Positions 859 through 22,733 of a DNA stretch of 36,786 nt are shown piece after piece (the first letter of the stretch is position 1; every line of letters starts with the position of its first letter). The notes under the pieces are model-generated. The model worked only from the letters and a program-made list of their open reading frames with translations, had not been told where the DNA came from and made no database searches. The position numbers and the translations under genes were made by a program. The stretch comes from Allosalinactinospora lopnorensis. GTDB taxonomy: Bacteria > Actinomycetota > Actinomycetes > Streptosporangiales > Streptosporangiaceae. Location of the stretch: assembly GCF_000981225.1 (NCBI RefSeq), contig NZ_LAJC01000061.1, positions 1 to 36,786 of the forward strand. The letters are read 5' to 3'.

Positions 859-1286
859 CCCTCCCGCAGAGCGACCGGGGCAGCGCGACGTTGGAACTCG
901 CCGTGCTCAGCCTCGGCCTGCTGATGCTGATCTCAGTCGTGGTCGCCTTGGGTCGGTTCCAGGTCACCGCACACGCGGTGGAGGACGCCGCCCGTGCGGC
1001 AGCCCGGCAAGCCTCCATCGCCCGCTCTGCCCAAGACGCACAGGCCAACGCCCATTCCGCGGCGGTCACAACACTGGCGGCCCAAGGACTGCAGTGCACC
1101 GAAATGACGGTGTCACTGGACACCTCCGGGTTCACCAAATCCCCCGGCGATCCAGCTCAGGTGAGCGCGACCGTGCACTGCTCCGTTCTCCTCTCCGAGA
1201 CCGCGCTTCCCGGCCTACCAGGCAGCCGGGATGTGACCGCCACCTTCACCAGCCCCATCGACACCTTCAGGGAGTCAGCACCATGA
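855..1286 (+). CDS. TadE/TadG-like pilus assembly protein
   Basis: This 143-residue protein starts at the ATG at 855 inside an ATGA overlap; a longer in-frame reading from 285 runs through two other genes and is not believable. The protein begins with DRGSATLELAVLSLG and a membrane helix (LLMLISVVVALGRFQV), followed by an alanine-rich helical stretch (EDAARAAARQASIARSAQ) and a beta-rich C-terminal half with two Cys (residues about 90 and 119) that could form a disulfide outside the membrane. This is the usual plan of TadE/TadG-like minor pilins. It is coupled to both neighbours by 4-base overlaps. Confidence 0.82.
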   Translation: MTLPQSDRGSATLELAVLSLGLLMLISVVVALGRFQVTAHAVEDAARAAARQASIARSAQDAQANAHSAAVTTLAAQGLQCTEMTVSLDTSGFTKSPGDPAQVSATVHCSVLLSETALPGLPGSRDVTATFTSPIDTFRESAP

Positions 1287-1708
1287 TCGGCCTCCACAAC
1301 GGCGACCGCGGCAGCACCACCATCTTCGTCGCGGTGGCGGTCATCGCTGTACTCCTGGTGGCCGGCCTGGTCATCGACGGCGGCGCCCAACTGCGCGCCG
1401 CCCAGCGCGCCACATCCATCGCCGAGGAAGCCGCCCGGGCCGGCAACCAAGCCATCGACGTCTCTGCTGTCCTCCAGGGCGGTGACGTGCGCATCGATAC
1501 CGATGCCGCGGTCGCCGCCTCCAATTCCTACCTCCGCGCGGCAGGGGCCAACGGGACGGTGCGCGCCACGTCGGCCACCACAGTCAGCGTCGAAGTGAAC
1601 GAAAGTGTCGACACGCTTCTGCTCTCCCTCATCGGGATCAACTCGCTGTCCGCTTCAGGATCGGCGACCGCCCGCATCGTCCCCGGACTCGCCCAGGAAT
1701 CACCATGA
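1283..1708 (+). CDS. TadG-like (Flp pilus assembly) membrane-anchored protein
   Basis: This 141-residue protein begins at the ATG at 1283, overlapping the preceding TGA; the longer frame from 1094 is a shadow. The N-terminus is NGDRGSTTIFVAVAVIAVLLVAGLVIDGG, the arrangement of the pilus-assembly TadE/F/G-like domain (small polar leader, G-S, hydrophobic helix, then D-G-G). After it comes the typical helix QLRAAQRATSIAEEAARAGNQA and an extracytoplasmic beta-rich remainder. It ends in another ATGA overlap with the LysM gene, placing the regulator in the same transcript. Confidence 0.82.
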   Translation: MIGLHNGDRGSTTIFVAVAVIAVLLVAGLVIDGGAQLRAAQRATSIAEEAARAGNQAIDVSAVLQGGDVRIDTDAAVAASNSYLRAAGANGTVRATSATTVSVEVNESVDTLLLSLIGINSLSASGSATARIVPGLAQESP

Positions 1709-2577
1709 CCCAGCACCGGAGTACCCCGCAGCGCCAACAGAGCGCGCCGGTCGGATTCGCCCGCGGGTTGGCGGCCACGGCGCTGTTGGTCGCCATCGTC
1801 CTTGGAATCCCCGCGCTCCTGCTCACCTTTGGCGGCTTCCCCCTCCCTGATCGTGTCCCCACCTGGGCAGAGATCGCCGATCTGCTGTCCCGCCCCGATG
1901 ACGGGTCACTCTTCATCGGCGTGCTCACCTGGGTCGCGTGGGTGGCGTGGCTGGTGCTCACCGTGCTGATCGCGTTGGAGGCCATCACCCAGCTGCGTGG
2001 CATGCCCCCGATCCAATTGCCGGGAATGGGCTGGCTTCAGGTCGCCGTGGCCGGGCTCGTCTCCCCCGCAATAATTGGGCTCTCCGGGGGCACAGCGAAC
2101 GCTGAGGAGTCCCCCGTGGTCGCGGTGGTGGCTTACCAGAGTCCCGGCGGGCCGGCCCATCAGGAATCCCAGCAAGAGGAGGACACTGACGCCCAAGAGG
2201 CCGATGCCTCCGATCCTGCCACCAAGCAGCGCCTCTACACCGTGCAACCCGGGGATTCCTACTGGAGGATCGCTGAAAACCAGCTCGGCGACCCCGAGCG
2301 CTACACCGAGATCGTCGCGGCCAACAAGGGGCGCGCGATGCCGGATGGGACCGTGCTCAGCGGGGAGGAGTTCCTCGCACCGGGGTGGGAGCTCCTCCTG
2401 CCTGTTGCAGACCAAGAACAGCACGAACCGGAGGATTCCTCGGAGGAGACCGTGCACACGGTCAAGGCCGGTGAGACGCTGTCCGCAATCGCATCCGAAC
2501 ACCTCGCGACGCCGAAGCCTACCCTGAGATTTTCGAGGCCAACCAAGACCGCCCGCAACCAGGCGGAGCACGTCTAA
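1705..2577 (+). CDS. LysM-membrane protein, 5' part of a frameshifted LysM-BTAD gene
   Basis: This 290-codon reading frame starts in an ATGA overlap with the TadG-like gene. Visible parts are membrane helices at about residues 22-44, 72-95 and 111-128, an acidic linker, a full LysM repeat at about 177-233 (YTVQPGDSYWRIAENQLGD), and the start of a second LysM at about 249 (HTVKAGETLSAIASEHL). The second LysM derails at about 2506: inserting one base in CTCGCGACGCC restores HLGDAEAYPEIFEANQ and DVGWTLSIPE in another frame. Two further one-base losses (about 2690-2714 and 2830-2838) then lead into the frame of the next entry. The stop at 2577 is therefore a product of frameshift. LysM domains bind peptidoglycan glycan chains, so the intact product would be wall-linked. 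Confidence 0.8.
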   Translation: MTQHRSTPQRQQSAPVGFARGLAATALLVAIVLGIPALLLTFGGFPLPDRVPTWAEIADLLSRPDDGSLFIGVLTWVAWVAWLVLTVLIALEAITQLRGMPPIQLPGMGWLQVAVAGLVSPAIIGLSGGTANAEESPVVAVVAYQSPGGPAHQESQQEEDTDAQEADASDPATKQRLYTVQPGDSYWRIAENQLGDPERYTEIVAANKGRAMPDGTVLSGEEFLAPGWELLLPVADQEQHEPEDSSEETVHTVKAGETLSAIASEHLATPKPTLRFSRPTKTARNQAEHV

Positions 2578-2838
2578 ACGACCCTGATGTCATCGATGTC
2601 GGCTGGACCCTGTCCATCCCCGAGGCCACCGCGAACACCTCGTCTGAGGCCCCCGCTGCACCGCCGGAGACCCAAACCGTCCCCTCCCCGCAAGGCCCGG
2701 CCCCGCCCCAGCCAAGCATGATAAGGAACCCCACCACGAGAACACGACGCCAGAGGTCGAGGAAGACAGCGGCAAGGAGCCAACATCCCCCCAGGCGCAG
2801 GAGGGCGCGCCCGAGCATGAACCCGCTCCTGGCATGAT

Positions 2839-4911
2839 GAGCCCCCTGCCGCACAGGATCTGGGAATCGCGGCCCCGACCAAGGCTGCGGAGTCCGACGA
2901 GACCATCGACATCGACCTGACCAGTGAAACCGACGACGACCAAGACGCCCCCGCAATCGGGTCGATCGCCGGCTACAGCGCTCTGGCCGCCCTCGGTGTT
3001 CTCAGCGTTCTCGGTTTGCGTCGACGCAACCAGATGCGGCATCGCCGCCCGGGACACCGCATCGTCCAAGACCTCAGCGAGGATGCCCAGGAAGTCGAAG
3101 AGGAAGTACACAACGCCTCGGCCTCAGCCAGCGTAGAGCTACTCGACCGCGGCCTGCGATCACTTTCGGCTAAGTGCGCCTCCACGCAGACCACCTTGCC
3201 CAGCCTGCTGGGCGCTCGTGTCTCAAACACGGAATGCGAAATCTTCGTCGGCGAGGATGCTCCAGCGATCGCGATCTCTCCCTTCCGGGCCACCGGTACG
3301 GGCCGCTGGCGATTGCATCCCGAATCCTCCGCCCTACTGCCCGAGGACGAAGCCGCTGAAACCCGCGCCCCCTACCCAGGGTTGGCCACGATCGGGCACG
3401 ACGCCGACGGCGCCCAGATCCTGGTCGAGCTGCCACAGACCGGAGCCATCGGGCTCTACGGCCCTGCCGAGGACACCAAACAGGTTCTAGCGGCACTGGC
3501 CCTGGAACTGGCGACCTCAGTAAGCACCGACCATCTCAACCTCAGCTGCATCGGTGTCGCCGACGGCCTGGCCTCCACAGCCAAGACCGGACGCATCCGC
3601 GCGGCCGACAGTGTGCACCAATGCCTGCGCGAACTCGAACTCTTGACGCTGGAGTACGCCTCCGGAGAGAGCTCCACCGAAGACATTCCTCCAGAGGTCG
3701 TCTTGTCGGCCTACCCGCTGACCAGCGAGCACCTCGGGCGCATGCGCACCATCGTCGGACACGCTGCCGCCCCGCCCATCGCCATCATCGCCGCCGCCAC
3801 AGAGGAGCACCCCCTACCCGGCACATGGCGCCTAGACACCGCCAAAGAGGCCCGCCAAAAACTCCCGATCCTGGACCAGCCGGTCACCCTCCAAAGACTG
3901 ACCGACGACGAGTACACCAAGCTTGCCGACCTACTGCGCCACGCCGAAGAAACCCGCAGCGTCGCCGCCCCCGGCTGGGAGAAGGTCCCCACCGAAGACA
4001 CACTCGAACCGGTCCCCGTCGGCTCTAACCCCCTGGGCCAGCGCACCGACACCTCCACTACCCAAACCGAGGCCCTCAGCACGCTCGTCTCCATCGCCAA
4101 GACCACGACGCCGCCCCCACAGCCAACCGCGCCGGCGATTCCGCAGGACACGCCCCCACGCCTGGAGACCTACGAAGTTCAGCTCTGCGTGCTCGGACCG
4201 GTTGAGCTGATCGGCCCTGACCCCGCCAGTCTCGAGGCGGGCAAACGCAGAGTGCTCACTGAGCTCGCCTGCCTGCTTCGTCTGCGCCCCGAACGCACCC
4301 CCGATCAGATCTCGCGGAGCATGGGTGGTCCACGCGGACCATGGTCGGCCAAGTACCGAGCCGACAACCTCAGCAAGCTCCGAGTGTGGCTCGGCCGCGC
4401 CCAAGGCGGCAAGCTCCACTTACCGACAATGAGCGGCGGAACCTACTCACTGAGCCCCACGGTCGGCTGCGACTGGGCCTGCTTCCAGCAACTCGCCCAG
4501 CACGGGTTGGCCAGTGAGGACGCCGCTGGTACGGCACTCCTCGAACAGGCCCTCACCCTCGTCCACGGTGAACCACTCAGCGGCACGCCACTGGACCGCT
4601 ATGCCTGGGCTGAACCACTCAAGCCGACCATGCTCGCCGCGATCGTGGACACCGCCCACACCATTGCCGCGCGTCACCTTCGCTACGACTACGGCAACCT
4701 GGACACCGCACGAGAGGCACTGCTCAAGGTTCTCGAGATCGACCCGGTCTGTGAACTGCTCTACCGCGACCTCATCCGCGTCGAGCACAGAGCCGGCAAT
4801 CCCGAAGGCATCACCCGGGCGGCCCAGCGCCTCTACATCGCCCTGAACAAGCTCGACCTTGAGATGACCCCGCAGACCGAAGAACTCCTGCGAAAGCATG
4901 GAGTCCGATAA
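2839..4911 (+). CDS. BTAD/AfsR-type regulator, 3' part of a frameshifted LysM-BTAD gene
   Basis: This is the continuation of the preceding gene. The frame is open from 2821; the first start-like codon is a TTG at 3016, but homologous-looking sequence begins earlier with an acidic stretch and a membrane helix (IGSIAGYSALAALGVLSVLGL, about 2950-3018), so I read it as internal to a larger protein. A cytoplasmic middle region of about 350 residues follows. The C-terminal 240 residues carry an OmpR-like winged helix (VQLCVLGPVELIG, LTELACLLRL, DNLSKLRVWLG) and a bacterial transcriptional activation domain built of TPR-like helices (CDWACFQQLAQ to LLRKHGVR). The layout suggests a membrane-tethered regulator of the Tad operon. 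Repaired length would be about 1,070 residues. Confidence 0.8.
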   Translation, partial: EPPAAQDLGIAAPTKAAESDETIDIDLTSETDDDQDAPAIGSIAGYSALAALGVLSVLGLRRRNQMRHRRPGHRIVQDLSEDAQEVEEEVHNASASASVELLDRGLRSLSAKCASTQTTLPSLLGARVSNTECEIFVGEDAPAIAISPFRATGTGRWRLHPESSALLPEDEAAETRAPYPGLATIGHDADGAQILVELPQTGAIGLYGPAEDTKQVLAALALELATSVSTDHLNLSCIGVADGLASTAKTGRIRAADSVHQCLRELELLTLEYASGESSTEDIPPEVVLSAYPLTSEHLGRMRTIVGHAAAPPIAIIAAATEEHPLPGTWRLDTAKEARQKLPILDQPVTLQRLTDDEYTKLADLLRHAEETRSVAAPGWEKVPTEDTLEPVPVGSNPLGQRTDTSTTQTEALSTLVSIAKTTTPPPQPTAPAIPQDTPPRLETYEVQLCVLGPVELIGPDPASLEAGKRRVLTELACLLRLRPERTPDQISRSMGGPRGPWSAKYRADNLSKLRVWLGRAQGGKLHLPTMSGGTYSLSPTVGCDWACFQQLAQHGLASEDAAGTALLEQALTLVHGEPLSGTPLDRYAWAEPLKPTMLAAIVDTAHTIAARHLRYDYGNLDTAREALLKVLEIDPVCELLYRDLIRVEHRAGNPEGITRAAQRLYIALNKLDLEMTPQTEELLRKHGVR

Positions 4912-5078: not shown

Positions 5079-5663
5079 TCAAACGCCGCCCTCGGCCTCC
5101 ACCTCCTTGATGATGCGCCTGGCCCAACGCCGCGACCGACCAAAGCGCTCCGCCAGTTTCCGCTCTGAGATCCGGTTGCCTTCGGCAAGACTGGCACGAT
5201 AGAGCGAAGCTGCCTGCTCCTCGATCTCCTTCTCCGAAGCCGGCCGCCCGGTCCTGCTGCCTGCCCGCACCAGCCACATCAGCATCTCGTAGCAGCCCAC
5301 CAGTGCGACCGCCGGCCAGGCCGCCACGACCGCTCCCACCGGACCGTTCTGGATCCCGTGAGCGATGTTCGCCGCCAGCGTCGCGACGATCCCCAGCCAC
5401 AGCAGCCCCCAGGCGAGGATGGGCGCCCGTAGGTGGTTGCGGGCCGCATCGAGGATGACCATCGAGGCGGCATAGACCAAACCATCGATGGTCAGCGGGA
5501 TCATCCACGCCGTGGCGCCGCTCTCTCCGTAGTCGGTGACCACCGCGTAGGCATGGCGATAGGAGACAACGGCGGCCACCGCTGCCACACCGCAAACGAC
5601 GAGCTTCGTCGACTCACGGATGATCCGGTCAGTGCCTCTTACCTGCCTGTTTTCTCCAGCCAT
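5079..5663 (-). CDS. DUF2637 domain membrane protein with C-terminal helix-turn-helix
   Basis: This encodes 194 residues from the ATG at 5663, chosen because GGAAGGAG lies six bases upstream; an ATG 20 codons earlier (5723) has no ribosome site. It contains four predicted membrane helices (KLVVCGVAAVAAVVSY; MIPLTIDGLVYAASMVIL; ILAWGLLWLGIVATLAAN; VGAVVAAWPAVALVGCYEML), the DUF2637 arrangement. The last 50 residues (EEQAASLYRASLAEG, ISERKLAERFGRSRRWARRII) form a probable winged or simple helix-turn-helix. DUF2637 proteins are frequent on actinobacterial plasmids and integrative elements, some near transfer (spread) genes, but their function is unproven. It is convergent with the Tad operon and has no obvious partner here. 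Confidence 0.8.
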   Translation of the reverse strand: MAGENRQVRGTDRIIRESTKLVVCGVAAVAAVVSYRHAYAVVTDYGESGATAWMIPLTIDGLVYAASMVILDAARNHLRAPILAWGLLWLGIVATLAANIAHGIQNGPVGAVVAAWPAVALVGCYEMLMWLVRAGSRTGRPASEKEIEEQAASLYRASLAEGNRISERKLAERFGRSRRWARRIIKEVEAEGGV

Positions 5664-5973
5664 AGGCTCCTTCCCGGATAAGGAAGGACCAACGACAGAA
5701 GGCTGTGACATCTGCTCTGCCAAGAACCGGGGGCTTCAAACCACCTCATGCGGGGGTGAACAGAACGGTGTAACTCCAAGGGGCGGAAGTTCACAAGAAT
5801 GACAAGATGCAGGTCGCGAAGGGTGCTGGCAGGCCAGGCGACGAAGCGTCGCCTCCTACTGAGAGCTCCGTGTCTATGCCGGAGGATCATGAACTCCTCT
5901 CAGCTCACCCGGATAGCCCCTTTTGCTGCGCGCCGCCCGATTTAGATTCTTTTAGATCACCTCAATAAGAGGT
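5664..5973. other. Gene-free stretch between the DUF2637 gene and the jetA-like remnant
   Basis: This stretch of 310 bases should hold the DUF2637 promoter. The right part is AT-richer than its surroundings (5940-5972), and a perfect 6-bp hairpin, CACCTC-AATAA-GAGGTG, spans 5958-5974, touching the first possible start of the next frame. No convincing reading frame or RNA gene was seen. Confidence 0.5.
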
Positions 5974-9477: not shown

Positions 9478-11013
9478 CTATCCCAGGCCTGTCATCTCCT
9501 CGTCCCAGCTGAAAACGCGCAGCGCTTGCGCGTCGGCGGGGGCGACAGCGTGCTGTTCCGCGCTGATCGGAACCGGGCTGCCTCCGACGAGGCCCTCGCC
9601 TCTCAGGTCGACGAAGCGGAGCTGACGTTCATCCGCATTCTCTCCCTGCTGCCCGATGGCGTAGCGACCGTTCTCATTCGGGATGAACGTTTCATCGCAG
9701 TTGATCGGTGCTGTGACGAGCTCCTCCGAACCTCCAATGGCCGGCTGCCGAGTATGGATTCTGGCCCAACCTCCATCGGCTGCCAGTCGGCAGCTCGCAT
9801 GGACCGGCTCCTCTGTTCCCGCGGTCACAGTGGTGCTGAGGTGATTCTCCTGCGGATCCAGATCAAATCCCGGAAAGTCGATGGTCTCGGTCGGACCCTC
9901 CGGCAACGCGTGGACGAGGACCTCCTCCGGTGAGCCGACAAAGGGCGAGCTGACAAAGAGTGCGTCATCGCTCAAGAGGAACGTTCCGTCATCGTCACCC
10001 TCTTCGTTGGCGATCGGCTCGCGAGCCACCTCCTCGCCCGTCTGCGTGTCGTAGACCGTGATCTTCTCCGAGCTCCTCAGCTCGTGGACGGCTAGGTAGC
10101 CACCCGAAGGCGAAAGCGCGATCGCTGATGGTGATTCGACGACGCCGCCGTCCGGGACATCGACGTCACCCAGATGCCGCCCCTGCGCGTCGTGCAACGT
10201 GACCAGCTCATCGGTGAGCAGCGCAATTGTGTTGCCGTCCGCGGATATCGCGATTTCGTTCGCTATCTCGCCGGTGAGTGGGGCCTCTTCGGCCCCCTCT
10301 TCAGTAATGTTCCACATGTGAACCCGTAGGCCGGCAACGACGCCGACGCGGCTGAGATCGGAGGACACCTTGGGCTCTCCGACGTCAGAGGCCAACACAC
10401 CTCCTGGGGAGATCAGCGCGTCCAGCTCCCGGGTGCGAGCGTAGACGTCGAACAGCGCCTCGGTCGCACGCTGCGTCGGCGCTGTCCGATAAGCGGCGAC
10501 CGCGTGCAGCACCAGCTCCTCGTCCAGTTCGGACCGGCTGCCCACGTCAACGGCGAGCGTTTGAGAGGCCGCGTTAGCCTTCTCCTGCTCCGCACGCCTG
10601 CGTTGAGCCTCCGCGGCGACACCGATAACCAAAGCTAAAACGATGAGTCCAGATATGATTGCGATAACCGTTCGCGATCTGCGGCGCCGCCGAATGCGCG
10701 AGTTGGTCGAGGCAGCTAGGTAGCGCCGTTCGTCCTCGGTCAACTCTGCGCCGCGAGCCGGCACCTGCTCCTCGGCCTCCTCCAGGGCCGACCCGTGTAG
10801 CAACAGGGAGTCGTCCCTACCGGACCGCATCCATCGGAGCGTGTCGTTGCGGAGCCCTTCGCGCCAGATCAGGAAGCGTTCGTCCGCGCGCACCCAATCG
10901 CGCAGCCTGGTCCAGTTGTCAATCAGGGCCTCATGAACGAACCGCACCGTCGTCGCACGCCCGGCGTCCTCGGTGACGACGACCAACCTAGCCACTGCGG
11001 GAAGCTGCACCAA
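9478..11013 (-). CDS. nSTAND C-terminal helical region, membrane helix and beta-propeller (fragment 2)
   Basis: A 511-codon frame that continues the protease/NTPase frame. The first 20-80 residues (RFVHEALIDNWTRLRDWV, FLIWREGLRNDTLRWM) are the typical end of nSTAND modules. A basic cluster and one membrane helix follow (RIRRRRRSRTVIAIISGLIVLALVIGV, about 106-132), then a short coiled segment (EAQRRRAEQEKANAASQTLA) and the first propeller blades (LRVHMWNITEEG, LVTLHDAQGRHLGDV, ITVYDTQTGEEVA). It overlaps fragment 1; adding one C in the CCC at 11015-11017 (+ strand) gives SGELVQLPAV and rejoins the frames. The helix places the propeller and the protease/NTPase on opposite sides of the membrane, or tethers one of them. 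Confidence 0.78.
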   Translation of the reverse strand: MVQLPAVARLVVVTEDAGRATTVRFVHEALIDNWTRLRDWVRADERFLIWREGLRNDTLRWMRSGRDDSLLLHGSALEEAEEQVPARGAELTEDERRYLAASTNSRIRRRRRSRTVIAIISGLIVLALVIGVAAEAQRRRAEQEKANAASQTLAVDVGSRSELDEELVLHAVAAYRTAPTQRATEALFDVYARTRELDALISPGGVLASDVGEPKVSSDLSRVGVVAGLRVHMWNITEEGAEEAPLTGEIANEIAISADGNTIALLTDELVTLHDAQGRHLGDVDVPDGGVVESPSAIALSPSGGYLAVHELRSSEKITVYDTQTGEEVAREPIANEEGDDDGTFLLSDDALFVSSPFVGSPEEVLVHALPEGPTETIDFPGFDLDPQENHLSTTVTAGTEEPVHASCRLAADGGWARIHTRQPAIGGSEELVTAPINCDETFIPNENGRYAIGQQGENADERQLRFVDLRGEGLVGGSPVPISAEQHAVAPADAQALRVFSWDEEMTGLG

Positions 11014-12545
11014 CTCCCGCTCACCAGGCTGAGCTCCTCCAGAAGTGCGCTCCGCCCGACCGGCAGATGGCCCCGATGGACGCGCAAGAGCCTGTTGAAG
11101 AGCCGTGGAGCGACGGCGCGCTCGCCCGGGCCCAGCAGCGCCCAGACTTCTTCAGCGTAGCCATCCAGTGCGCCCGAGATCCCCCCGAACTCCTCATAGG
11201 CTCGGTGGCCGATTACGCCGCCCCGCTGCTCGTCCCACAACCGGGACAGGGTGAACTGGAGGAGCGGGAGTGGGGCCTTTGCCTCGCGAACAGCCTCCAG
11301 AATTCGTTCCACCAAGCCGTTCTCGAAGACAACTCCGGAAGGCAGCGGCCCCTCAATGGTCCGGCGCAACTCGGCGTCGCCCATCGCGGGGACCGACCTG
11401 GTGTGCCACGAGGCCAACCCAGCCAGCTCGCGCTGACTGAGGAGTGTGTCGAGGAAGTCGGAGCGTACCGCGACTAGCGCCCGGACTATGGAAGACGGTC
11501 GGGACGCTTCGGCAGTGACCCTGGCAACCAGCTCGACCGCGTCTGCGGTAACCGTTTCCTCGGCCTGGTCGACAACAATGAGTGTGCTATCTGCGCCGCG
11601 GATGGCAGCGTCCACCCGCTCACGCACTGCCGCCTCTGTAGGGCGAACAACCAACACGTTGCGCTTATGCGCCGCGCGCAGTCGGGGCAGTACTCCGGCA
11701 AGGAGCAGGGAGGTCTTCCCACACCCCGACGGGCCGACGAGCAGGGCGTTCTCCCGCTTGGCGGCCCGCTCGACGAGCTCGGCCACCAACGCTTCGCGCC
11801 CGAAGAACAGATGGCTGTCCTCCGCATGGAAGGCACGCAGCCCACGATAGGGAGTCGGCGGGATAACGCGGTCATGGATCTCGGGCAGTGCGTTGAGGAG
11901 GGCCTGGCCAGTGATCGCGTAGCTCGTCCGCGAGTCCAGCCTGGGAGTAACGGCGAGAGTCATCCCCACAACCGCCTGGAGTACATCGGACCAGAGCGGT
12001 CCCCCGCTGAAGCCGGGTTGAACGGGAACCCCGGTCATACGTATGTCCTCCGTCTGCACTACCCCAGAGGCAGAGTGCCCCAGGATCGTGCACCGCGCCC
12101 AGGCGACGTTATGCAGCCCTTGAGGAAAGCCACCGACGCGCGCCTCGACGCCGGAGAGGTTCCCACTGGTGACAAGACGGACAGGCCGTGCCCCGACGGG
12201 AACCGAGGATGAGGATAGGAGGCGCAGCAGGGCGATATCGCCTTGCAGTTCGGTTCCACCGGAAATCCAACGCTCGACCGTGGTCTCGATCCGCGCGTGC
12301 GGATCGATCAGGGGAAAGACCACCGTCACGTGGTCTCGGTGAGAAGGAGGGTCGGCGTGCTCGGCCCCGATGGCACGCGACACCACATGCGCGCAGGTCA
12401 AAAGGGTATCGTTGGATATCAGAAACCCAGCCCCGACGGACGTCCCCACACTATTCTGCACGCGTACGAGCGCAGCCTCGAGTGAAGTGGCCAGAGCTAC
12501 CCTCTCCCTTCCGAAGAGCATCGCTAGAACCGAACGACGATTCAT
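10923..12545 (-). CDS. Trypsin-like protease fused to nSTAND NTPase (fragment 1, N-terminal)
   Basis: I use ATG 12545 (an ATG at 12521 is possible; the frame opens at 12656). With that start, a trypsin-fold protease occupies about 25-225 with His53 (TCAHVV), Asp103 (QGDIALL) and Ser180 (GFSGGPLW). The linker PYRGLRAFHAEDSHLFFGRE opens an nSTAND NTPase with P-loop GPSGCGKT at 271-278 and Walker B TLIVVDQAEE near 321-330. STAND ATPases are signal-responsive switches; a serine protease effector suggests cleavage of a target after activation. The frame goes wrong at about 11015 (one missing base), giving an artefactual tail ending at 10923. Its partner Trypco1 lies downstream beyond the propeller fragments and IS. 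Confidence 0.83.
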   Translation of the reverse strand: MNRRSVLAMLFGRERVALATSLEAALVRVQNSVGTSVGAGFLISNDTLLTCAHVVSRAIGAEHADPPSHRDHVTVVFPLIDPHARIETTVERWISGGTELQGDIALLRLLSSSSVPVGARPVRLVTSGNLSGVEARVGGFPQGLHNVAWARCTILGHSASGVVQTEDIRMTGVPVQPGFSGGPLWSDVLQAVVGMTLAVTPRLDSRTSYAITGQALLNALPEIHDRVIPPTPYRGLRAFHAEDSHLFFGREALVAELVERAAKRENALLVGPSGCGKTSLLLAGVLPRLRAAHKRNVLVVRPTEAAVRERVDAAIRGADSTLIVVDQAEETVTADAVELVARVTAEASRPSSIVRALVAVRSDFLDTLLSQRELAGLASWHTRSVPAMGDAELRRTIEGPLPSGVVFENGLVERILEAVREAKAPLPLLQFTLSRLWDEQRGGVIGHRAYEEFGGISGALDGYAEEVWALLGPGERAVAPRLFNRLLRVHRGHLPVGRSALLEELSLVSGSWCSFPQWLGWSSSPRTPGVRRRCGSFMRP

Positions 12546-12758
12546 CACCGTTCCATGGCGGAAGCGATCGATCAAGCGGTTTTGGTTTTTCCGCTTATTG
12601 ACCGATAAGGAGTTTTCGTCCCGATTCTTGAGATGGAGGGTGAAGACTGCTCGCACGCGTTTACGTGCAAGGAGATGTTGAACGGAAAATCAAGGTTCGG
12701 TAGGGCAGGCCGCGGTATCCGGTGCTTAAAGCGCAACGGATGTTGGAAGAGCGCCTGG
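12546..12758. promoter_or_regulatory. AT-richer upstream region of the trypsin-nSTAND gene
   Basis: This stretch of about 210 bases between the IS110-like fragment and the first likely ATG includes the least GC-rich part of the module (12575-12625). It must hold the promoter on the - strand if the module is expressed. I could not assign -35/-10 boxes with confidence. Confidence 0.35.
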
Positions 12759-12986: not shown

Positions 12987-13374
12987 AGACCCGGCAGTAG
13001 AGATCAAGGGGTCTGCCGGTGGAGACGGCGTGGATCAGGTCTTGGAGTTCGTTGGGCGGGGGCCTGGCTGTCCAGGCTCGCCAGTAGCGTTGCAGCATGG
13101 TCCAGGGCACCAGCCAGCCACGGACGGCCCGGAGCGCCCGGGGCTAGCAGGCCGGCTGGGGCCGCGGTTCTCCCCTCTCTGCCGGACCCGGCAGCGCAGG
13201 GGGTTCGGGCGGCAGGTCGGTAGCTGGCGGGGGCGGGGCGAACCAGATGTCCCAGCAGAAGCTGAACGCGCAGTTGACCAGACTCTGGTGGCGGCGGATG
13301 GCGGCATCGGAGCGCACCTGGGCCTTGGGCCAGCCCAGCTCGTCCTTGATCTGCTTGTAGCTCTGCTCGCCCCA
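12985..13374 (-). pseudogene. DDE transposase C-terminal fragment (IS701/IS4-like) with an internal stop
   Basis: Reading on the - strand: WGEQSYKQIKDELGWPKAQVRSDAAIRRHQSLVNCAFSFCWDIWF, a Pro-rich linker, then an in-frame TAG at 13144-13146, then PRALRAVRGWLVPWTMLQRYWRAW and PPNELQDLIHAVSTGRPLDLY to TAA at 12985-12987. The E-Q-x-Y-K-Q-x-K-x-E-L-G-W and R-R-H-Q blocks are those of a DDE transposase C-terminus. The TAG probably replaced a Trp codon, since the frame stays meaningful on both sides. The N-terminal part is missing; the open frame fuses directly to an IS110-like fragment. Confidence 0.68.
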
Positions 13375-13992
13375 GAGGAACATTGCGCGTTTGAGCTGGC
13401 GGTTGCCGCCTCTGGGGGCGTGTTCGCCGTGGATCGAGGTCCCTGAGGACTTCGTGGTCGGGGCGAGTCCGGCGTAGGAGGCGAGGTGGGCGGCGGTGGG
13501 GAAGCTAGCGCCGTCGCCGACGGTGACCAGCAGTACGGCGGCGGTCCTGACCGCGACCCCAGGCATCGAGGTCAGGACCACCGAAAGAGGGGGCGCCTCC
13601 AGCAGGGCCTCGATCTGCGCTTCCAGGGCTCGGCGTTGCTCGTGGACGGCCGCGAGCGAGCGGGCCAGCGAGGGGATGACGATGTCGAGAGTGCCGGTGC
13701 CGGGAACGACGACGGTTTGTTCGTCCAGAGCGTTGAAGAGCTCATCGATCAGCCGGGCGGCCATGCGTGGTGCCTGGGGCCAGATCACCTCGACGAGCCT
13801 GCGGCGGCCGGCCTTTCGCAGCGCGGCCGGGGATCCGTAGCGTTCCAGCAGCCAGGTCACCGCGGGATGGTCTAGGCGCGGCCCGAGGACGCGCTCCAGG
13901 GACGGGTGGAACTGAGTGAGCAGACCGCGTGTGCGGTTGCTGGTACGGGTGCCTCGGCCGCGAGGTCCTGGTCGAAAATCTCCACCAACACG
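13375..13992 (-). pseudogene. IS110/IS116-family transposase, middle fragment with frameshift
   Basis: From 13860 down to 13375 the frame reads LLERYGSPAALRKAGRRRLVEVIWPQAPRMA, LSVVLTSMPGVAVRTAAVLLVTVGDGASFPTAAHLASYAGLAP, SGTSIHGEHAPRGGNRQLKRAMFL: the transposase_20 domain of IS110-like enzymes with its helix-hairpin-helix-like core. Upstream, FDQDLAAEA (near 13965) and SNRTRGLLTQFHPSLERVLGPRLDHPAV belong to the same protein but need one base restored near 13945-13955. After AMFL the family sequence stops and another transposase begins. N-terminal RuvC-like DEDD domain and true C-terminus are missing. Confidence 0.72.
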
Positions 13993-15674: not shown

Positions 15675-17672
15675 ATGACACAGAGACACCAAGGTCGGCT
15701 GGAACTCACCTGGACCGACAAGGAGAAGACACTCCTGTCGACAGGTGACGGGCAGTACGACTACACGTTCGTCGATCCCTCCGACTACCGTGTTTCCGAG
15801 GTGCGGCTGCTCCACGAGATGGACCGTGTCGAAGCACCCACTCCCGAGGATCGACCTGACGAACTCCCGGAGCCGACCGACGACAACCTGTTGATCACCG
15901 GCGACGCGATGCACGTACTGGACGCGCTCGCCAAGATTCCCGAGTACTCCGAGAAGTACCTGGGCAAGGTGAAGCTGGTCTACATTGATCCGCCGTTCAA
16001 CACCGGACAGGCGTTCACGAACTACGAAGACAACATCGAGCACTCGATCTGGCTCACGATGCTTCGTGACCGGCTCCGCCAGATTCGTCCCCTGCTTGCC
16101 CACGACGGGTCAATCTGGGTCCACTTGGATGACGTGGAAGTGCACCGCTGCCGGGCGGTCATGGACGAGGAACTTGGCCCCGAGAACTTCCTTGCGGAGG
16201 TCGTGTGGCAGAAGGCCACATCGCCGCGAAACGACACGACCGGCTTCTCAGTGTCGCACGACAGCCTGCTGGTGTACCGCAAGACCGACCACTGGGTTCC
16301 GAACCGGATGAGGCGACTCGCGTCCTCGAACACGTCTCGCTACCGCTCGCGAGACGGTGACCCCGTACCGTGGCGCGATGGCGATGCAACGGCGGGGAAG
16401 GCTGCTACCAACCACCCGATGGTCTACGCCATCCAGCACCCGGTCACCGGCGGCCTGATGTACCCGACCCCCGGACGATGCTGGGGCAAGGCACAATCCT
16501 GGTTCCTCGAACAGATGAACGAGTACGCGAAATACGAGCTGCGCGACATCGGCGACGAAGAAAAGCGCGCCGTCATCTGCGGCACTACGGCGGAGGAGGT
16601 CAAAGCGGGTGTTCCGGCCATCATGCTCGCGGAGCCGCTGGAAGACGCAGCCAAATCGGCGCGCGACCGACACGACGCCGGCCACTGGCCGGACCTGGTG
16701 TTCCTCGACCTGAACAAGGAACGGATCCAGCGCAAGAAACACCTGGCCGACGAGGGTCGCGTTCCGGAGACTCTGTGGTTCGCATCCGACGTGGGCGGTT
16801 CGCTCCGCGGGAAGAACCAGATTCGCGACCTGTTCCCGGACCTCCATGCCTTCGCCACCCCGAAGCCCGAAGAACTCCTCCAGCGGGTCATCCACATCGC
16901 CACCAACCCCGGTGACATCGTGCTTGACTGCTACGGCGGCTCCGGGACAACCGCGGCAGTTGCACACAAGATGGGGCGCCGCTGGGTGACTTCCGAGCTC
17001 CTGCCCACCACGGTGAGCAAGTACACCAAGCCCCGGCTTGCGCGGGTAGTCAAGGGCGATGACCCGGGAGGGGTCACGACCTCTCAAGAGCGAGTCGCTG
17101 CCGCAGATCTACCAGACGGCGTGACTCCTGAAGAGGCGCACGAGTTCAACCGACTGCTCAAGAAGGTGACCGGAGGCCGGGAGGACCTCGACACCGACAC
17201 CCTGAAGGCCCTTCAAAAGCTCACCAAGACCAAGGTCGAAACCACCACCTTGTGGCATGGCGGCGGCGGCTTCACCCACCTTGAGGTCGGTCCGTCGATG
17301 TTCGACGAGGTGGACGGGATGGTTCTGCTCGCTGACTGGGCCACACGGGGTGATCTCGCCGAGGCGATGTGCGCACAACTGGAAGTCACCTACTCCCCCG
17401 ACGGGATCTTCGCCGCCAAGGAAGGCACCGTCCGCTACGTCGTCATCGACGGGCTCGTCGGCGAGTCGACCGCCCAGTCGATCCTCGACCAGCTCCCAGA
17501 AGGCCAAGTCGTCGAGGTGTGGGCCACCCAGGTCGCCGACGGTGCAGCAGACCTGCTCCGGAAGGAGCGGAAGGGCTCCCGACTCGAAGCGATCCCCGAC
17601 TCGGTTCTCGACCGGTACCGCAGGAAGGCGTCGAACGGCTCACCGTTCAAGAAGGAGAACACCAGTGAGTGA
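15675..17672 (+). CDS. mod: Type III restriction-modification system, DNA methyltransferase subunit (Mod)
   Basis: This 665-residue protein starts at ATG 15675 with AGGAG six bases upstream. Motif IV DPPFNTG is at about 105-111 and the AdoMet-binding motif I DCYGGSGTTAAVAHKM at about 416-431: the order (IV before I) of beta-class N6-adenine methyltransferases, as in type III Mod proteins. Between them lies a long variable target-recognition region (about 190-370). The C-terminal 200 residues would contact Res. Mod methylates one strand of an asymmetric site and also supplies specificity to the restriction complex. The gene overlaps res by 8 bases (stop at 17670-17672, res start 17665). The frame is intact, unlike many neighbours. 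Its site specificity cannot be read from sequence. Confidence 0.92.
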   Translation: MTQRHQGRLELTWTDKEKTLLSTGDGQYDYTFVDPSDYRVSEVRLLHEMDRVEAPTPEDRPDELPEPTDDNLLITGDAMHVLDALAKIPEYSEKYLGKVKLVYIDPPFNTGQAFTNYEDNIEHSIWLTMLRDRLRQIRPLLAHDGSIWVHLDDVEVHRCRAVMDEELGPENFLAEVVWQKATSPRNDTTGFSVSHDSLLVYRKTDHWVPNRMRRLASSNTSRYRSRDGDPVPWRDGDATAGKAATNHPMVYAIQHPVTGGLMYPTPGRCWGKAQSWFLEQMNEYAKYELRDIGDEEKRAVICGTTAEEVKAGVPAIMLAEPLEDAAKSARDRHDAGHWPDLVFLDLNKERIQRKKHLADEGRVPETLWFASDVGGSLRGKNQIRDLFPDLHAFATPKPEELLQRVIHIATNPGDIVLDCYGGSGTTAAVAHKMGRRWVTSELLPTTVSKYTKPRLARVVKGDDPGGVTTSQERVAAADLPDGVTPEEAHEFNRLLKKVTGGREDLDTDTLKALQKLTKTKVETTTLWHGGGGFTHLEVGPSMFDEVDGMVLLADWATRGDLAEAMCAQLEVTYSPDGIFAAKEGTVRYVVIDGLVGESTAQSILDQLPEGQVVEVWATQVADGAADLLRKERKGSRLEAIPDSVLDRYRRKASNGSPFKKENTSE

Positions 17673-20142
17673 TCTGAAGGTCGACGAGCACCTACTCGAA
17701 GAGGTCAAGCACCGGCTGAGCCTACGCGACCCGAACTTCCGAGCCGTCGAATCGGTCGCGAACATGATGAGCCAGCACTACGACGTGGAAGAGAAGACCG
17801 AGCCGTTCGAGTGCATCGTCGACTCCGCCACCGGCGTCGGCAAGACATACATCATGGCCGGGCTCCTCGAATACCTCGCCGGCATCGGCACCCCCGCCCG
17901 CAATTTCCTGATCCTCACCCCGGGACGGACCATCCGCGACAAGACAGTCCGGAACTTCACCCCCGGGGACGACAAGGCGATCACGAAGTCGATGCGGTCA
18001 GATCCGGTCATCGTGACTGCGGACAACTTCGATTCCGCCGCCACCGCCAACGCGATCACGGATACCTCGAAGACCAAGGTCTACATCTTCACCGTCCAGT
18101 CGCTCACTGAGACCACCGAAGCGAGTGGTGGCCGCAAGACCCACGCCTACCAGGAGTTCCTGGGGGCCTCCTTCTACGACTGGCTCAGCACTCTCGATGA
18201 CCTCGTGATCCTGGCCGATGAGCACCACTGTTACCGCGGCCCCGCGTTCTCCAAGACCATCACCAACCTCAACCCCGAACTCGTCGTAGGCGTGACCGCC
18301 ACGCCGGACCCCAAGGACGAAGCCCGCGTCGTCTACCGGTACCCGCTCGCGAAGGCGATCGAGGACGAGTACGTGAAGACCCCCGTTCTCGTGGCCCGCC
18401 AGGACGATAGGAGCGATGACCGGACGAAGCTTCTCGACGGAGTCACGCTGCTCAAGCACAAGGAACGAGTCAGCGAGGCGTGGGCGGCAGAGAACGCAGT
18501 CAAGCCGGTACGGCCCGTCATGCTCGTGATCGCCCAGTCGATCGACGACGCGGAAGCATACAGAGACATCCTCGACTCAGAGAGCTTTGACGGTGGCGCC
18601 TGGGTGGGCAAGACCCTACTCGTCCACTCGAAGCTGACCGGGGAGAAAAAGGAAAAGGCACTCGCCGATCTGGACGCCGTCGAGAACCCGGCATCTCCCG
18701 TCCGGATCATCATCTCGATCGGAATGCTCAAGGAGGGCTGGGACGTCAAGAACGTGTACGTGATCGCCTCGATGCGCGCCTCGGTCTCCGAGGTCCTGAC
18801 GGAGCAGACACTCGGGCGAGGCATGCGTCTACCCTACGGAAGGTACACCGGTGAGCAGATGCTCGACACCGTCGAGGTCCTCGCGCATGAAAAGTACGAG
18901 GCGCTGCTGAAGAAGCGCCAGGCGCTCTCCCAGTCCATGGTCGACCACCGGATCCTCGCCCAGGTCCGCACCACCGGCGACGGCAAGAAGGTCGTTCGCA
19001 AGAAGACCGAGGAAGTCGACAACCCCTTCGAGGGCCAAGCCGTCCCCGCACCGCAGGTCGACGACAAGGGCCTCCCGAGCTCAAAAGAACCTGTCGAGCA
19101 CGTCCAGTCTCTCGACGACCACCTCAAGCAGATTGAAGCCCGGGCAAAGGACGTCCCCGACGAGGCCCGAACCCACATGCCGCTTCTGGACCGGGAGCCC
19201 ATCCGCATCCCGTACGTGCAGCGGGTACCGCAGCCGCAGGCGGTGTCACTGAACCAGGTTCATGAGATGAGACCGTTCCAGGCCCTCGGCGAGGCACTGA
19301 GGCACGACGCAGGTGACACGCTCATCCGGACCGCCCTTAAGGCCAAAGACGGCCAGATCAAGGGGCAAAAGGCCGAAGACACCGTCGAGGCGCTCCACCT
19401 GAACACGCCCCTGGAGACGTCACGGAAAGGGCTCATCGACCGCGTCATGAAGGTCAAGGGCGTCGAGCGCCGCAAGAGCGAACGCAACGCAGCTGAATCG
19501 ATCGTCGACACAGTCATCGAAGCGATGGGCGATACCGCAGCCGAGAACCTGTCTGCCTACTTCGACCGCGCCGCCAGGCGGCTCGAATCCGAGGTCGCCA
19601 AGCAGATAGGGGAGCGCGCCAAGGTTGGGGTCGTCTTCCATGACAGGGTGCAGATCACTGATCTCGACAAGCCGCGGACCGCCCGTCGCAAACACGAGGC
19701 CGACCACACCGTCACGTTCGAGCGGTCACGTGCGTACAACGGCTGGGAGAAGGGCGCCTACGAGTACGCGTGGTTCGACTCATCCCCCGAATACAAGGTC
19801 GCTGGTGCCGTGGATGCTGACGACCACGTCATTGTGTGGGCGCGGCTCCACCGCAACGACATCCCGATCACCTGGACCCAGGAAGGGCGGGAGTACAACC
19901 CCGACCTGGTGGTCATCGAGGAGGCCAACGGCGTGCGGACCAACTGGCTGGTCGAGACAAAGATGAACAAGGAGATTAACGCCGCTGACGTCATCGCGAA
20001 GAAGAAGGCGGCGAAGACGTGGACCAACACGATCAACAACTCCGGGCGGGCAGACGGACGGTGGCAGTACCTGCTGTTGTCGGAGGACGACGTCAACGAC
20101 GCCGCCGGCTCGTGGGCCCAGATGAAGGACTTCGGCCGCTGA
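17665..20142 (+). CDS. res: Type III restriction enzyme, helicase-nuclease subunit (Res)
   Basis: This encodes 825 residues from GTG 17665, with AGGAG upstream inside mod; a longer frame from 17257 is a mod shadow. SF2 motifs: Walker A SATGVGKT near 54-61, LILTPGRTIRDK (Ia), LADEHHCYRG (motif II, near 182), GVTATPD (III, near 209-215), and TLGRGMRLPYGRY (VI, near 380). The C-terminal nuclease carries YNPDLVV and VETKMNK, a PD-(D/E)xK core near 743-765. Res translocates or slides with ATP and cuts DNA once it meets a second unmodified, oppositely oriented site. Length and motif order match intact enzymes. Together with mod it is the only clearly complete defence system in the window. Confidence 0.92.
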   Translation: MSDLKVDEHLLEEVKHRLSLRDPNFRAVESVANMMSQHYDVEEKTEPFECIVDSATGVGKTYIMAGLLEYLAGIGTPARNFLILTPGRTIRDKTVRNFTPGDDKAITKSMRSDPVIVTADNFDSAATANAITDTSKTKVYIFTVQSLTETTEASGGRKTHAYQEFLGASFYDWLSTLDDLVILADEHHCYRGPAFSKTITNLNPELVVGVTATPDPKDEARVVYRYPLAKAIEDEYVKTPVLVARQDDRSDDRTKLLDGVTLLKHKERVSEAWAAENAVKPVRPVMLVIAQSIDDAEAYRDILDSESFDGGAWVGKTLLVHSKLTGEKKEKALADLDAVENPASPVRIIISIGMLKEGWDVKNVYVIASMRASVSEVLTEQTLGRGMRLPYGRYTGEQMLDTVEVLAHEKYEALLKKRQALSQSMVDHRILAQVRTTGDGKKVVRKKTEEVDNPFEGQAVPAPQVDDKGLPSSKEPVEHVQSLDDHLKQIEARAKDVPDEARTHMPLLDREPIRIPYVQRVPQPQAVSLNQVHEMRPFQALGEALRHDAGDTLIRTALKAKDGQIKGQKAEDTVEALHLNTPLETSRKGLIDRVMKVKGVERRKSERNAAESIVDTVIEAMGDTAAENLSAYFDRAARRLESEVAKQIGERAKVGVVFHDRVQITDLDKPRTARRKHEADHTVTFERSRAYNGWEKGAYEYAWFDSSPEYKVAGAVDADDHVIVWARLHRNDIPITWTQEGREYNPDLVVIEEANGVRTNWLVETKMNKEINAADVIAKKKAAKTWTNTINNSGRADGRWQYLLLSEDDVNDAAGSWAQMKDFGR

Positions 20143-20226
20143 CGGATGCTACCGATGAATGCTCCACTTCGGCGCCGCTTCACCTGCAATGTCGGGGCAG
20201 CACACTCCCTCACCTGGAGGAACTCA

Positions 20227-20860
20227 TCGTTAGCTCGGATGCCCTCAGCGCGTTCAAGCGGGGCGAGCTGCGCGACAGGATCGCCGACACGCCCAGACTG
20301 AACCCCTACCTGCGCATCACCCCCGCCAGCAAGCTGCGCAACGACCACACCCGCATCAAGATCGGTGACACCCTCCTGGTTGTGGAGAACAGCGACATCT
20401 ACGCTACCCTTCTGCGCCTGCTTCGCCCCGCCCCAGGCGCGATTGGACACATCGCCTTCGGCTCCGGACACGCCTTCGAAGCATCCGTGGCCACGATCAC
20501 CCAACTTCCCCGCATTCGCCAGATTCTCTACTACGGCGATTTGGACGCAGAAGGACTGTCCATCCCGGCCCGTGCCTCAGCCACCGCCGTCCACCACGGT
20601 CTTCCCTGGCCGAATCCGCTACCCAGCTCTACCGATTCCTCCCGACAAAACAAACCAGCAAAGCACCAGCGGTCAACGCTGAACGAGCCCGCATACTCAC
20701 ATCATGGCTGGATCTCTCAGAACAGGACCAAGCCAGCGCTCTCCTAGTCAACGGACTCCGCATCGCCCAGGAGGCTGGCAACTACAACCGACTCCAGCAC
20801 GAAATTCCCTTTGTCGACTTCGTCGGCGCAAACGCACCACCAACGGCAAGCAGCGGATAA
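20227..20860 (+). pseudogene. JetD-like (Wadjet, Toprim-containing) protein, 3' part with frameshift
   Basis: The frame reads NPYLRITPASKLRNDHTRIKIGDTLLVVENSDIYATLLRLL, GHIAFGSGHAFEASVATI, ILYYGDLDAEGLSIPARASATAV: the Toprim-like C-terminal domain of Wadjet JetD, with the VENS and YYGDLDxEGL acidic motifs of the nuclease. Near 20603-20610 one base is missing; restored, the protein continues AESATQLYRFLPTK, RARILTSWLDLSEQDQASALLVNGLRIAQEAGNYNRLQ to TAA at 20858-20860. About 210 residues remain; the N-terminal half (DUF3322-like) is absent, and no proper start exists after the res stop at 20142. JetD is the nuclease that cuts plasmid DNA extruded by JetABC. Confidence 0.72.
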
Positions 20861-20969: not shown

Positions 20970-22046
20970 TTATTGTGCCTGCAGAGCTTTGGGGTTGGGG
21001 GTGCGTGATTTGCTGCGTCCTCGGATGTTGTCGAGTGCTGTCAGGGCGCTGTCGTCTGCGTCGGGGAGGGTGTGGAGGTAGCGCTGGGTGGTGGTGATGG
21101 AGGCGTGGCCGAGGCGTTCCTTGACGACCATGAGATCGGCGCCTCCGGCCAGTAGCCAGGAGGCGTGGGCGTGGCGCAGGACGCGCGGGGTGATGTCGTC
21201 GGGCAGGTCGGCCTTCTCGCGGGCGGGGTGCCAGATGTTGGTGCGGAACCACTCCTGGGGGATGTGGCCGTCGGTGTCGATGCGTCGGCGGCTGCGGGGG
21301 TCGTCCTTGCCCAGGGCGCGCCGCTTGGCCCGGTAGTGGGCGAAGGCGGCCCGGCAGTAGGCGCATCGGCACCTGCCATTGGTGTAGGCGGTGGTGGTGC
21401 CGTGCCGATAGCGGCGTCCGTTGGCGTTGGGTTCGGTCAGTCCGAACTCTTGGCCGTCGGGCGGTACGGGCGGCGGCGGAATGGGGACGTTGGGGTTAGG
21501 TCCTGGCATCTGGAAGAGCAGGTCGTCGTCACCGATGCCATTGGCCAGGACGAAGGCTGCGATCTTGAGGACGAGGTGGCGGCTGAGCTTGAGGCGGCGG
21601 AACTCGCCGTCCTTGGGGTAGTCCTTGACGAGGAAACGGCCGCCTTCGGGGTGGAACTTGGAGGTGAGCTGTACGACGGCGCGGCTGACGGTGAGGATCT
21701 GAGTCTGGCGGTCGAGGTCTTTGGGGCGCAGTTCGGTGAGTTCGCCCCAGCGCAGTCCTGACTCGATCTTGGTCTCCACTAGGAGACGGAACACCTCGCC
21801 TTCGATGTGGGCGAAGAACGCGTCGAACTCCTCGGGGGTGATCACCTTCAGCGGCTTGCGGCCGATGCGGGGAAGCACGACGCCTTTGCACGGGTGGATG
21901 AAGATGACCTGGTTGAGCAGGGCGTTGGAGAATATGGCGCTGAGCATGGTGGTCAGCCGGTGGATCGAGGCGGGGGAGAGGTTCTTGTCCTGGCATTTGC
22001 GCACGAATTCCTGGACGTGGCCGGGGAGGATCTCGTTCATCCGCAT
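20970..22046 (-). CDS. Tyrosine recombinase/integrase, core and catalytic domain (3' part of frameshifted gene)
   Basis: A 358-codon frame. It begins inside the core-binding domain ([39 protein letters not shown]), then the catalytic domain with Arg in [17 protein letters not shown] (R99), [27 protein letters not shown] (HxxR-type box II and the following H), and the nucleophile in TTTQRYLHT. Between the first Arg and box II is a Cys-rich insertion ([30 protein letters not shown]). The N-terminal 100 or so residues are in another frame (next entry). It lies about 150 bp from a tRNA-Ile 3' half, so it is the likely integrase of the element. Confidence 0.85.
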
Positions 22047-22348
22047 GCCGCTGAACTCGGGGAGGATGTGCTTGTTGAGGGCGTAGGTGATGTTCTGCCG
22101 GGTGGTGGCTTCGACAATGTGGTTGGGTTGCCAGTGGTTGAGGACGTAGTTCTCGAATCGCTGCGTCCGTGGTGGATGCTGGTGATGCGGCCTTCGGCGA
22201 CTTTGACCTCGGCGCGTTGCCAGGCTTTGTCGGCTTCCTTTTCGGTGGCGTAGGTGCCGGCGGAGCGTTCTCTTCCGCGGATGTCGGTGTAGTAGGCGGT
22301 GAAGCGTGAGGTGCCGTCGGTGCTGATGCGTTTGCGGGAGAAGCCCAT
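22037..22348 (-). CDS. Tyrosine recombinase, N-terminal segment (5' part of frameshifted gene)
   Basis: This part starts at ATG 22348: [54 protein letters not shown], the AP2-like arm-binding N-terminal domain of actinobacterial phage-type integrases. After IHHGR the frame becomes nonsense. Restoring one base near 22160-22172 gives [40 protein letters not shown] and runs into the main frame at 22046. Full repaired length is about 460 residues. Either the gene is dead or the base is missing from the assembly. Confidence 0.78.
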
Positions 22349-22506
22349 GTGTCAGCCCCTGTTTCCTTGACCGTGGTTTGACCGTGGCAGGAGGCGGTAC
22401 CGGGTGTTACTCGGCGGTAGCAGGCGGATCGTTCTTGCCCGTCTCACCTGGGGAAATAGGGAGAACGCTCGGCTTGTGACAGGGGTATTCGAGGCCCTTG
22501 ATCTGG

Positions 22507-22548
22507 CTGATAAGGATGAGGCCCCAGGTTCAAGTCCTGGTACGCCCA
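22507..22548 (+). tRNA. 3' half of tRNA-Ile(GAT), attachment-site copy
   Basis: The sequence runs from the anticodon loop CTGATAA (anticodon GAT) through GGATG, variable loop, T arm CCAGG-TTCAAGT-CCTGG and acceptor strand TACGCCC plus discriminator A. Upstream bases do not complete an anticodon stem (TCTGG where CATCC would be needed), and no D arm or 5' acceptor strand is present, so it is not a functional gene. This is the usual look of the att copy left at one end of an element integrated in a tRNA 3' end; the recombinase lies 158 bp to the left. The intact tRNA should be at the other, unseen end. Confidence 0.75.
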
Positions 22549-22559
22549 CCCAGGTCAAA

Positions 22560-22591
22560 GACCCCACGCGACGAACGCGCGGGGTCTTTTT
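22560..22591 (+). terminator. Intrinsic terminator after the tRNA-Ile half
   Basis: The arms GACCCCACGCG and CGCGCGGGGTC (one A/C mismatch) enclose ACGAA and are followed by TTTTT; flanking A and T runs extend the stem. This is a classic rho-independent terminator and probably belonged to the original chromosomal tRNA transcript, marking the native side of the att junction. Confidence 0.8.
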
Positions 22592-22636
22592 CGTGTCCGT
22601 ACTGCTGAGAAGTACCGCAGCCTTCGGTCAGCTTGT

Positions 22637-22669
22637 CACTCTGTCGACTTGTCCACATCCCTGTGGAGG
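22637..22669 (+). repeat. Direct repeat copy A with DnaA-box-like TTGTCCACA
   Basis: The segment CACTCTGTCGACTTGTCCACA plus CCTGTGGAGG recurs at 24862-24893 with a one- to two-base difference in the spacer. It contains TTGTCCACA, the preferred actinobacterial DnaA box, and a TCCACA/TGTGGA inverted repeat. The two copies bracket the MFS gene. Confidence 0.5.
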
Positions 22670-22733
22670 CTGCTTCCGAGCTTCTTGAGCGCGGCCACGT
22701 AGAGGTCGGGTAGCGGGAGCGACGACCCGGATC

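Follow-up and report, generated by a model that had tools for sequence, protein, structure and literature searches.

What does a tRNA copy that begins abruptly inside its own anticodon loop mark in an actinomycete genome, and how far does the DNA reach that came with it? The window analyzed here, a stretch of 36,786 bases, is the entire contig C61 of the Allosalinactinospora lopnorensis draft genome (G000; 5.89 Mb in 220 contigs); it contains such a copy, and ARAGORN finds no whole tRNA gene in it. A preliminary description of this DNA had read the fragment and the nearby recombinase gene as the att junction of an element of more than 22 kb, whose intact tRNA and second end should lie to the left of the window. 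We consider it quite likely that the window holds the right, integrase-side att site of a large T4SS-type ICE whose target was the tRNA-Ile(GAT) gene behind gyrA, at its 3' end. The border is more layered and the element bigger than first thought; its kind is already known.

Results

The att core at 22507..22552 (+) is the 3' part of a tRNA-Ile(GAT) gene and starts in the anticodon loop, two bases ahead of the anticodon. An intact tRNA-Ile(GAT) gene lies on contig C7 (G000:C7:38746-38821, minus strand), in the neighborhood of DUF3566, gyrA and gyrB genes, an order common to relatives; its 3' part equals window positions 22507-22549. Exact identity continues through 22552 for a total of 46 bases, the last 44 of the tRNA and two past it, and extends leftward by 0 bases. 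The core and its counterpart, C7:38744-38789(-), are thus a 46-bp direct repeat of the tRNA 3' end, present at both boundaries. A chance match can be excluded, because the 43-mer 22507-22549 occurs exactly twice in the 5.89-Mb assembly (on C61 and C7) and a reversed-pattern control returned 0 matches. At E<=1e-3, a single half copy was found in G000 and no further ones. Between the end of the integrase frame at 22348 and the core start at 22507 lie 158 bases, so that both the coordinates and the 46-base identity agree with the earlier account of a recombinase gene 158 bp from a tRNA copy starting in the anticodon loop. With the direct repeat at both ends and an integrase adjoining the half tRNA, the att junction of a tRNA-Ile element is supported as well. 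The second tRNA copy that the preliminary description looked for was found inside the intact tRNA-Ile(GAT) gene. Its placement of the missing parts was half right: the second end exists, but the intact tRNA belongs to another contig, C7. A position farther left on the same contig is ruled out, the window being all of C61.

The tyrosine integrase gene beside the core consists of two frames, not one. Its N-terminal frame (22037..22348, -) is homologous to residues 1-61 of the intact integrase of comparison genome G008 and then runs out of frame, and its C-terminal frame (20970..22046, -) carries the Phage_integrase catalytic domain, with homology from about 22163. Against the G008 protein, residues 1-61 align in one frame and 63-443 in the other, with the break at about 22163-22166. 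The frame breaks elsewhere in two comparison genomes, at about residue 281 in G023 and about residue 319 in G007 (G008 numbering; about 61 in the window). All eight integrases of loci L022-L029 (Microbispora, Thermomonospora, Glycomyces and a MAG) align in a single frame; this set omitted L030, a 45-residue match. In the MAG homolog (L024), a stop codon stands at the position of the catalytic Tyr, near 1490. The first His of box II is replaced by Arg in the window and in G023 and is retained in G007, G008 and the other eight. Because the break points differ among the three integrases, we favor decay over a programmed frameshift. The gene that adjoins this att site is recognizably a Phage_integrase-domain tyrosine integrase, though frame-broken and lacking the first box II His, and its sequence suggests that this copy of the element probably cannot move on its own integrase. 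Matches to the C-terminal frame comprised 39 plasmid records and 146 phage records, every one below 60% identity. A 29-residue stretch between the catalytic boxes (21318-21404, -) resembles a small cysteine motif, and a similar stretch is present in the aligned G008 and Microbispora integrases.

Between the integrase and the core, at 22367..22385 (+), the window has a paired arm-type repeat, TTGACCGT N3 TTGACCGT, with an 11-bp period. One such pair is found at each element end, the C7 copy (C7:38671-38689) on the other strand, and these are just two places in 188,620 bases (C61, C7:1-59999, C17 and C117). A looser motif gave a pair with the 11-bp period at six of nine left ends, a single site at two and none at one, the repeats of a pair being located at distances of about 57 and 68 bases to the tRNA. 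On the integrase side, Microbispora, Thermomonospora and G008 (three of ten loci scanned) have a similar pair that precedes the start of the integrase by about 30 bases. The motif search gave no pair on the integrase side of G023 and G007; by eye, TGTCCGT or CGTCCGT pairs can be seen there, with TTGTCCGT-like pairs on the tRNA side. We read the paired repeats as candidate arm sites of the integrase. On C7, about 170 bases lie between the intact tRNA and the end of a small HTH_17 excisionase-like gene behind it, which reads toward the tRNA, so that the xis-like gene occupies the C7 (tRNA) end of the element and the integrase the window end. Such a gene stands behind the tRNA, at a distance of about 170-410 bp, at four of 11 ends tested (G000, G023, G007, G008). 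In Microbispora (L022), a related integrase that has the same arm repeats adjoins the 3' half of another tRNA (L022 3488-3528), possibly tRNA-Pro, which matches a Glycomyces tRNA-Pro at just 76% over 34 bases. This tRNA half makes target switching within the integrase family possible.

But what about the DNA to the right of the core? A G+C hairpin with a T run at 22560..22591 (+), terminator-like by eye, had been taken for the native terminator of the tRNA. This assignment is not borne out: the stretch corresponds to the left end of a different element, found in G006, and a fossil C-terminal tail of a second, different tyrosine integrase lies close by at 22636..22701 (-), recognized by its match to the G006 integrase. 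The tail, YVAALKKLGSSLH..., corresponds to TVAALKKLGSSLH... of that protein, with 41/48 bases. The terminator as proven native was accordingly dropped. In G006, the intact tRNA is followed by the gene of a 431-aa integrase (G006:C10:28788-30083, Phage_integrase domain), which ends near the tRNA, and then by that of a DUF3631 protein; a second half tRNA follows 9 kb on, delimiting a 9-kb AICE-like element (G006:C10:20985-30229). A predicted empty site, composed of the tRNA side of C7 and the right flank of the window, matches G006 at 84% over 209 bp and is unbroken at the join, suggesting that an intact tRNA-Ile once preceded the right flank. G006 joins both flanks, yet its tRNA itself precedes another element. 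We conclude that an older element appears to have stood here first, leaving an att-adjacent scrap with an integrase tail before the MFS gene, a case of serial accretion. The MFS gene ends at 22734, to the right of the half tRNA and the fossil tail. Farther right lies NupC (34545-35897), present in two of 11 genomes in the same orientation: on the tRNA-Ile contig of G006, 19 kb from the half tRNA, and on the half-tRNA contig of G008, 101 kb from it. This placement, supportive but thin, makes the right part of the window probably the chromosomal side.

To the left of the integrase, the window opens with an open frame that we read, by position and frame alone, as the 3' end of a second type II secretion F (TadC-like) gene (3..245, +), split with C117:2-424(-). 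It is followed by pilus assembly genes of the TadE type, whose Pfam score falls just short of the cut-off, and of the TadG type, which exceeds it (285..1708, +), by a LysM protein and a BTAD-domain protein in two frames (1705..4911, +), both parts of which match one long plasmid protein, and by a DUF2637 protein (5079..5723, -), a domain also carried by both plasmids examined. A trypsin-like protease with an nSTAND1 ATPase, the latter divided between two overlapping frames, is a candidate defence gene (9478..12656, -). Beyond a piece of an IS110-family transposase (13144..13860, -) come the methyltransferase Mod (15675..17672, +) and the restriction enzyme Res (17665..20142, +) of a type III restriction-modification system, and part of a JetD (Wadjet) C-terminal domain (20019..20747, +). 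This piece adjoins the integrase, the frames scanned contain no other Wadjet gene, and it is listed as the probable relic of a lost defence system. C7 carries a CRISPR-Cas I-E system with a 41-repeat array (L009:10504-12976, L009 being a stretch of C7) of 29-nt repeats, mostly at a period of 61-62; a stray repeat copy lies at L009:9118. Its 40 spacers gave matches of just 15-20 bases to the collected loci, with no convincing target among these, and the array gave one weak record against phages. Contig C17 holds pPIWI_RE Argonaute-like defence genes (L115:9173-16951, corresponding to C17:29173-36951), and also encodes a type I restriction enzyme along with domains of the Replic_Relax, ParB and AlbA families.

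How far, then, does the element extend? The second end on C7 bears out an element of more than 22 kb, and we infer a chain C7(rev)-C17-C117(rev)-C61 that would make it one element of about 153 kb (38,743 + 82,966 + 8,869 + 22,552, minus overlap, plus gaps). C117 and C17 overlap at their ends by 59 bp at 91.5%, at the tcpE end, beyond which C17 continues with VirB4 and a lytic transglycosylase gene, as on plasmid NZ_CP117867.1; the other two of the three joins, C7-C17 and C117-C61, have no end overlap. C7 ends within a ketosynthase (KS) and C17 starts with an acyltransferase (AT) and a weak carrier-domain match in a fitting orientation, but this link is the weakest because polyketide synthase pieces recur. 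Read in reverse, C117 encodes ATP/GTP-binding, SAF, TadZ-like, CpaF and T2SF proteins and then the start of the next frame, so that the Tad block is divided between C117 and C61 in the order found on plasmids CP108999.1 and NZ_CP117867.1. A CpaF ATPase, a T2SF protein and TadE/TadG pilins, as expected of a Tad/Flp pilus locus, are present. The plasmid T2SF2 protein has no match in C61 or C117, which counts against their join. Through contig chaining, the element also includes VirB4 on C17 and, on C117, TcpE, which scores above the cut-off, and TcpC, which scores below it (26% by tblastn). One plasmid coupling protein used as query found no match in C61, C117, C7:1-39999 or C17, and the only relaxase-like match was the Replic_Relax domain on C17.

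Several observations count against a single element: it is pieced together from four draft contigs, its T4SS block stands in the reverse orientation to the Tad block, which is not so on NZ_CP117867.1, and the BTAD protein was matched in four of 13 genomes searched. In Microbispora, and for the best Thermomonospora match, the BTAD match lies on another contig than the integrase. DNA of C17:1-16500 matches at least 25 of 26 genomes including G000; among the matches listed, G000's own aside, these are scattered gene-family matches of about 1 kb or less and leave the choice between element and chromosome undecided. The preliminary description had suspected a Tad operon inside the element and thought this surprising. 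Inclusion of the Tad genes is probable; the surprise has gone, because the same gene blocks are carried by Streptomyces plasmids, and tad genes on a plasmid are also described in PMC5696575.

Related genomes show that tRNA-Ile is a recurrent target: half copies of it are common in relatives, which hold their own elements there, and nine of 13 family members, whose stretches were chosen because of matches, have at least one tRNA-Ile 3'-half copy without a 5' half. In the closed genome G023, a 33-kb element comprises tRNA-Ile (6415458-6415532), xis, CRISPR-Cas I-E, int (6446612-6447638, minus strand) and a half tRNA (6448317-6448360). Its xis homolog is 83% and its integrase 72-74% identical to those described here, and, at about 30-55% protein identity, it is colinear with the part of C7 between about 14 and 38.3 kb. 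The Tad and T4SS genes searched for are absent from these 33 kb, which counts against a single element of about 153 kb. G023 has its own plasmid-type Tad module (G023:C1:6555898-6563515) 107 kb past the half tRNA, with a CpaF 63% identical to that of C117. The paired repeats indicate another left end after its half tRNA (L038:3317-3430, a stretch of G023), and with it tandem elements at tRNA-Ile in a closed genome; no xis homolog was found at this second left end.

Discussion

The reading of the window as an att site draws on the 46-bp direct repeat, the paired arm-like repeats, the xis-like and integrase genes at opposite ends and the same layout in relatives. Could the half tRNA instead be a leftover of a chromosomal rearrangement or of a tRNA duplication, with window positions 1-22506 being ordinary chromosome? 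A draft of 220 contigs in which C7 and C61 are physically unjoined leaves room for this, but the integrase next to the half copy, the arm repeats at either end, xis at the opposite end, a closed relative with a colinear element and the unbroken predicted empty site make it very improbable. A composite array has more in its favor. Here, the C7 end would belong to a small G023-like element and C17-C117-C61 to another conjugative element or a nested insertion, the intermediate half tRNAs having been lost; the ends would be real, yet not the borders of one mobile unit. The 33-kb G023 element, with no Tad or T4SS genes detected and a second left end next to it, is just such a case, G006 and the window both display accretion, the relative orientation of the T4SS and Tad blocks is reversed compared with the plasmid, and accretion in actinomycete tRNA genes (PMC9513070) and tandem insertion (PMC3218068) have been described. 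However, a single half copy was found in G000 at E<=1e-3, and the TTGACCGT arm pairs of both outer ends are compatible with a single attP. We regard the composite array as unlikely and retain the single large ICE as the preferred reading.

A different doubt concerns mobility and is compatible with this reading of the border: the integrase may be intact, the break having arisen through an error in sequencing or assembly, or reflecting programmed frameshifting, and the element still mobile. That the assembly is a draft and that the tRNA-Ile integrases of G023 and G007 are broken too would suit this idea. Three breaks at different residues (about 61, 281 and 319) do not look like one programmed site, Arg takes the place of the first box II His in both the window and G023, and the eight integrases of L022-L029 are single-frame (that of L024 with the stop at the catalytic Tyr; L030 left out). 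On balance, an intact integrase seems rather doubtful.

If the large ICE is the correct reading, a tyrosine integrase would have exchanged strands in the anticodon loop of the tRNA-Ile(GAT) gene behind gyrA and so inserted the element at the 3' end of that gene, the element supplying a new tRNA 3' half and the old half being left at 22507. It would have entered ahead of the older element, of which the att-adjacent scrap with the integrase tail remains. Excision would yield a circle with the order xis, attP, int and would thereby reunite genes which integration had separated. As a further reading, well short of even probability, we tentatively propose that in this tRNA-Ile family xis and int flank attP and form a unit only in the circle, and that breakage of the integrase (at three different places, in three of the four genera examined) freezes the element and turns its many defence systems into a lasting immune island of the host, about 153 kb long.

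The window thus sets a defence-rich, probably conjugative element at a tRNA-Ile site used by several genera of the family; excision of the element may rebuild an xis-int unit, and integrase loss may fix a mobile defence island. The locus also offers an example for reading stacked att scars in draft genomes. If the chain is wrong, what remains is a routine tRNA att site. A literature search returned no title on such a tRNA-Ile element in actinomycetes.

Finally, we would like to place the element among known systems, as far as the accessible parts of the cited papers describe them. T4SS-type ICEs of Actinobacteria, of which 17 putative ones were counted in 275 genomes (PMC3218068), share with it an integrase, a tRNA target with direct repeats and VirB4; here, the target is tRNA-Ile, the length about 153 kb provided that the chain holds, and a Tad module and a broken integrase are added. 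For comparison, Streptomyces has two T4SS-type ICEs at tRNA-Thr with 87 CDS, and its IMEs/ICEs measure 86.0-99.7 kb (PMC9513070). CRISPR-Cas components are common to our element and the T4SS ICE of Frankia Fcci3350, where they were judged likely non-functional (PMC3218068, PMC9513070). With AICEs of the pSAM2 type (PMC3218068), the element has in common a tRNA-targeting integrase, Xis and tandem insertion; unlike them, it has T4SS genes by way of contig chaining. An AICE-like element at the same tRNA is the 9-kb one of G006, with its integrase and DUF3631 (RepAM-type) protein. TcpC, TcpE, VirB4 and a lytic transglycosylase are shared with the linear Streptomyces plasmids CP108999.1 and NZ_CP117867.1 and with Cutibacterium acnes, where VirB4 and TcpC genes adjoin a tad locus on a plasmid (PMC5696575). 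The ATP/GTP-binding, SAF, TadZ-like, CpaF, T2SF, TadE/G, LysM and DUF2637 proteins are shared with the same plasmids. Both Streptomyces plasmids are typed as non-mobilizable by MOB-suite. In contrast to these plasmids, the element described here is integrated at a tRNA gene, has xis and int, and carries its T4SS block inverted relative to the Tad block. ICEKp1, ICEclc and ICEEc1 show state-dependent int transcription (PMC13023037), and as in these ICEs, the excision junction sets a new sequence upstream of int; unlike in them, the sequence brought there would, as predicted from the gene order, contain xis.
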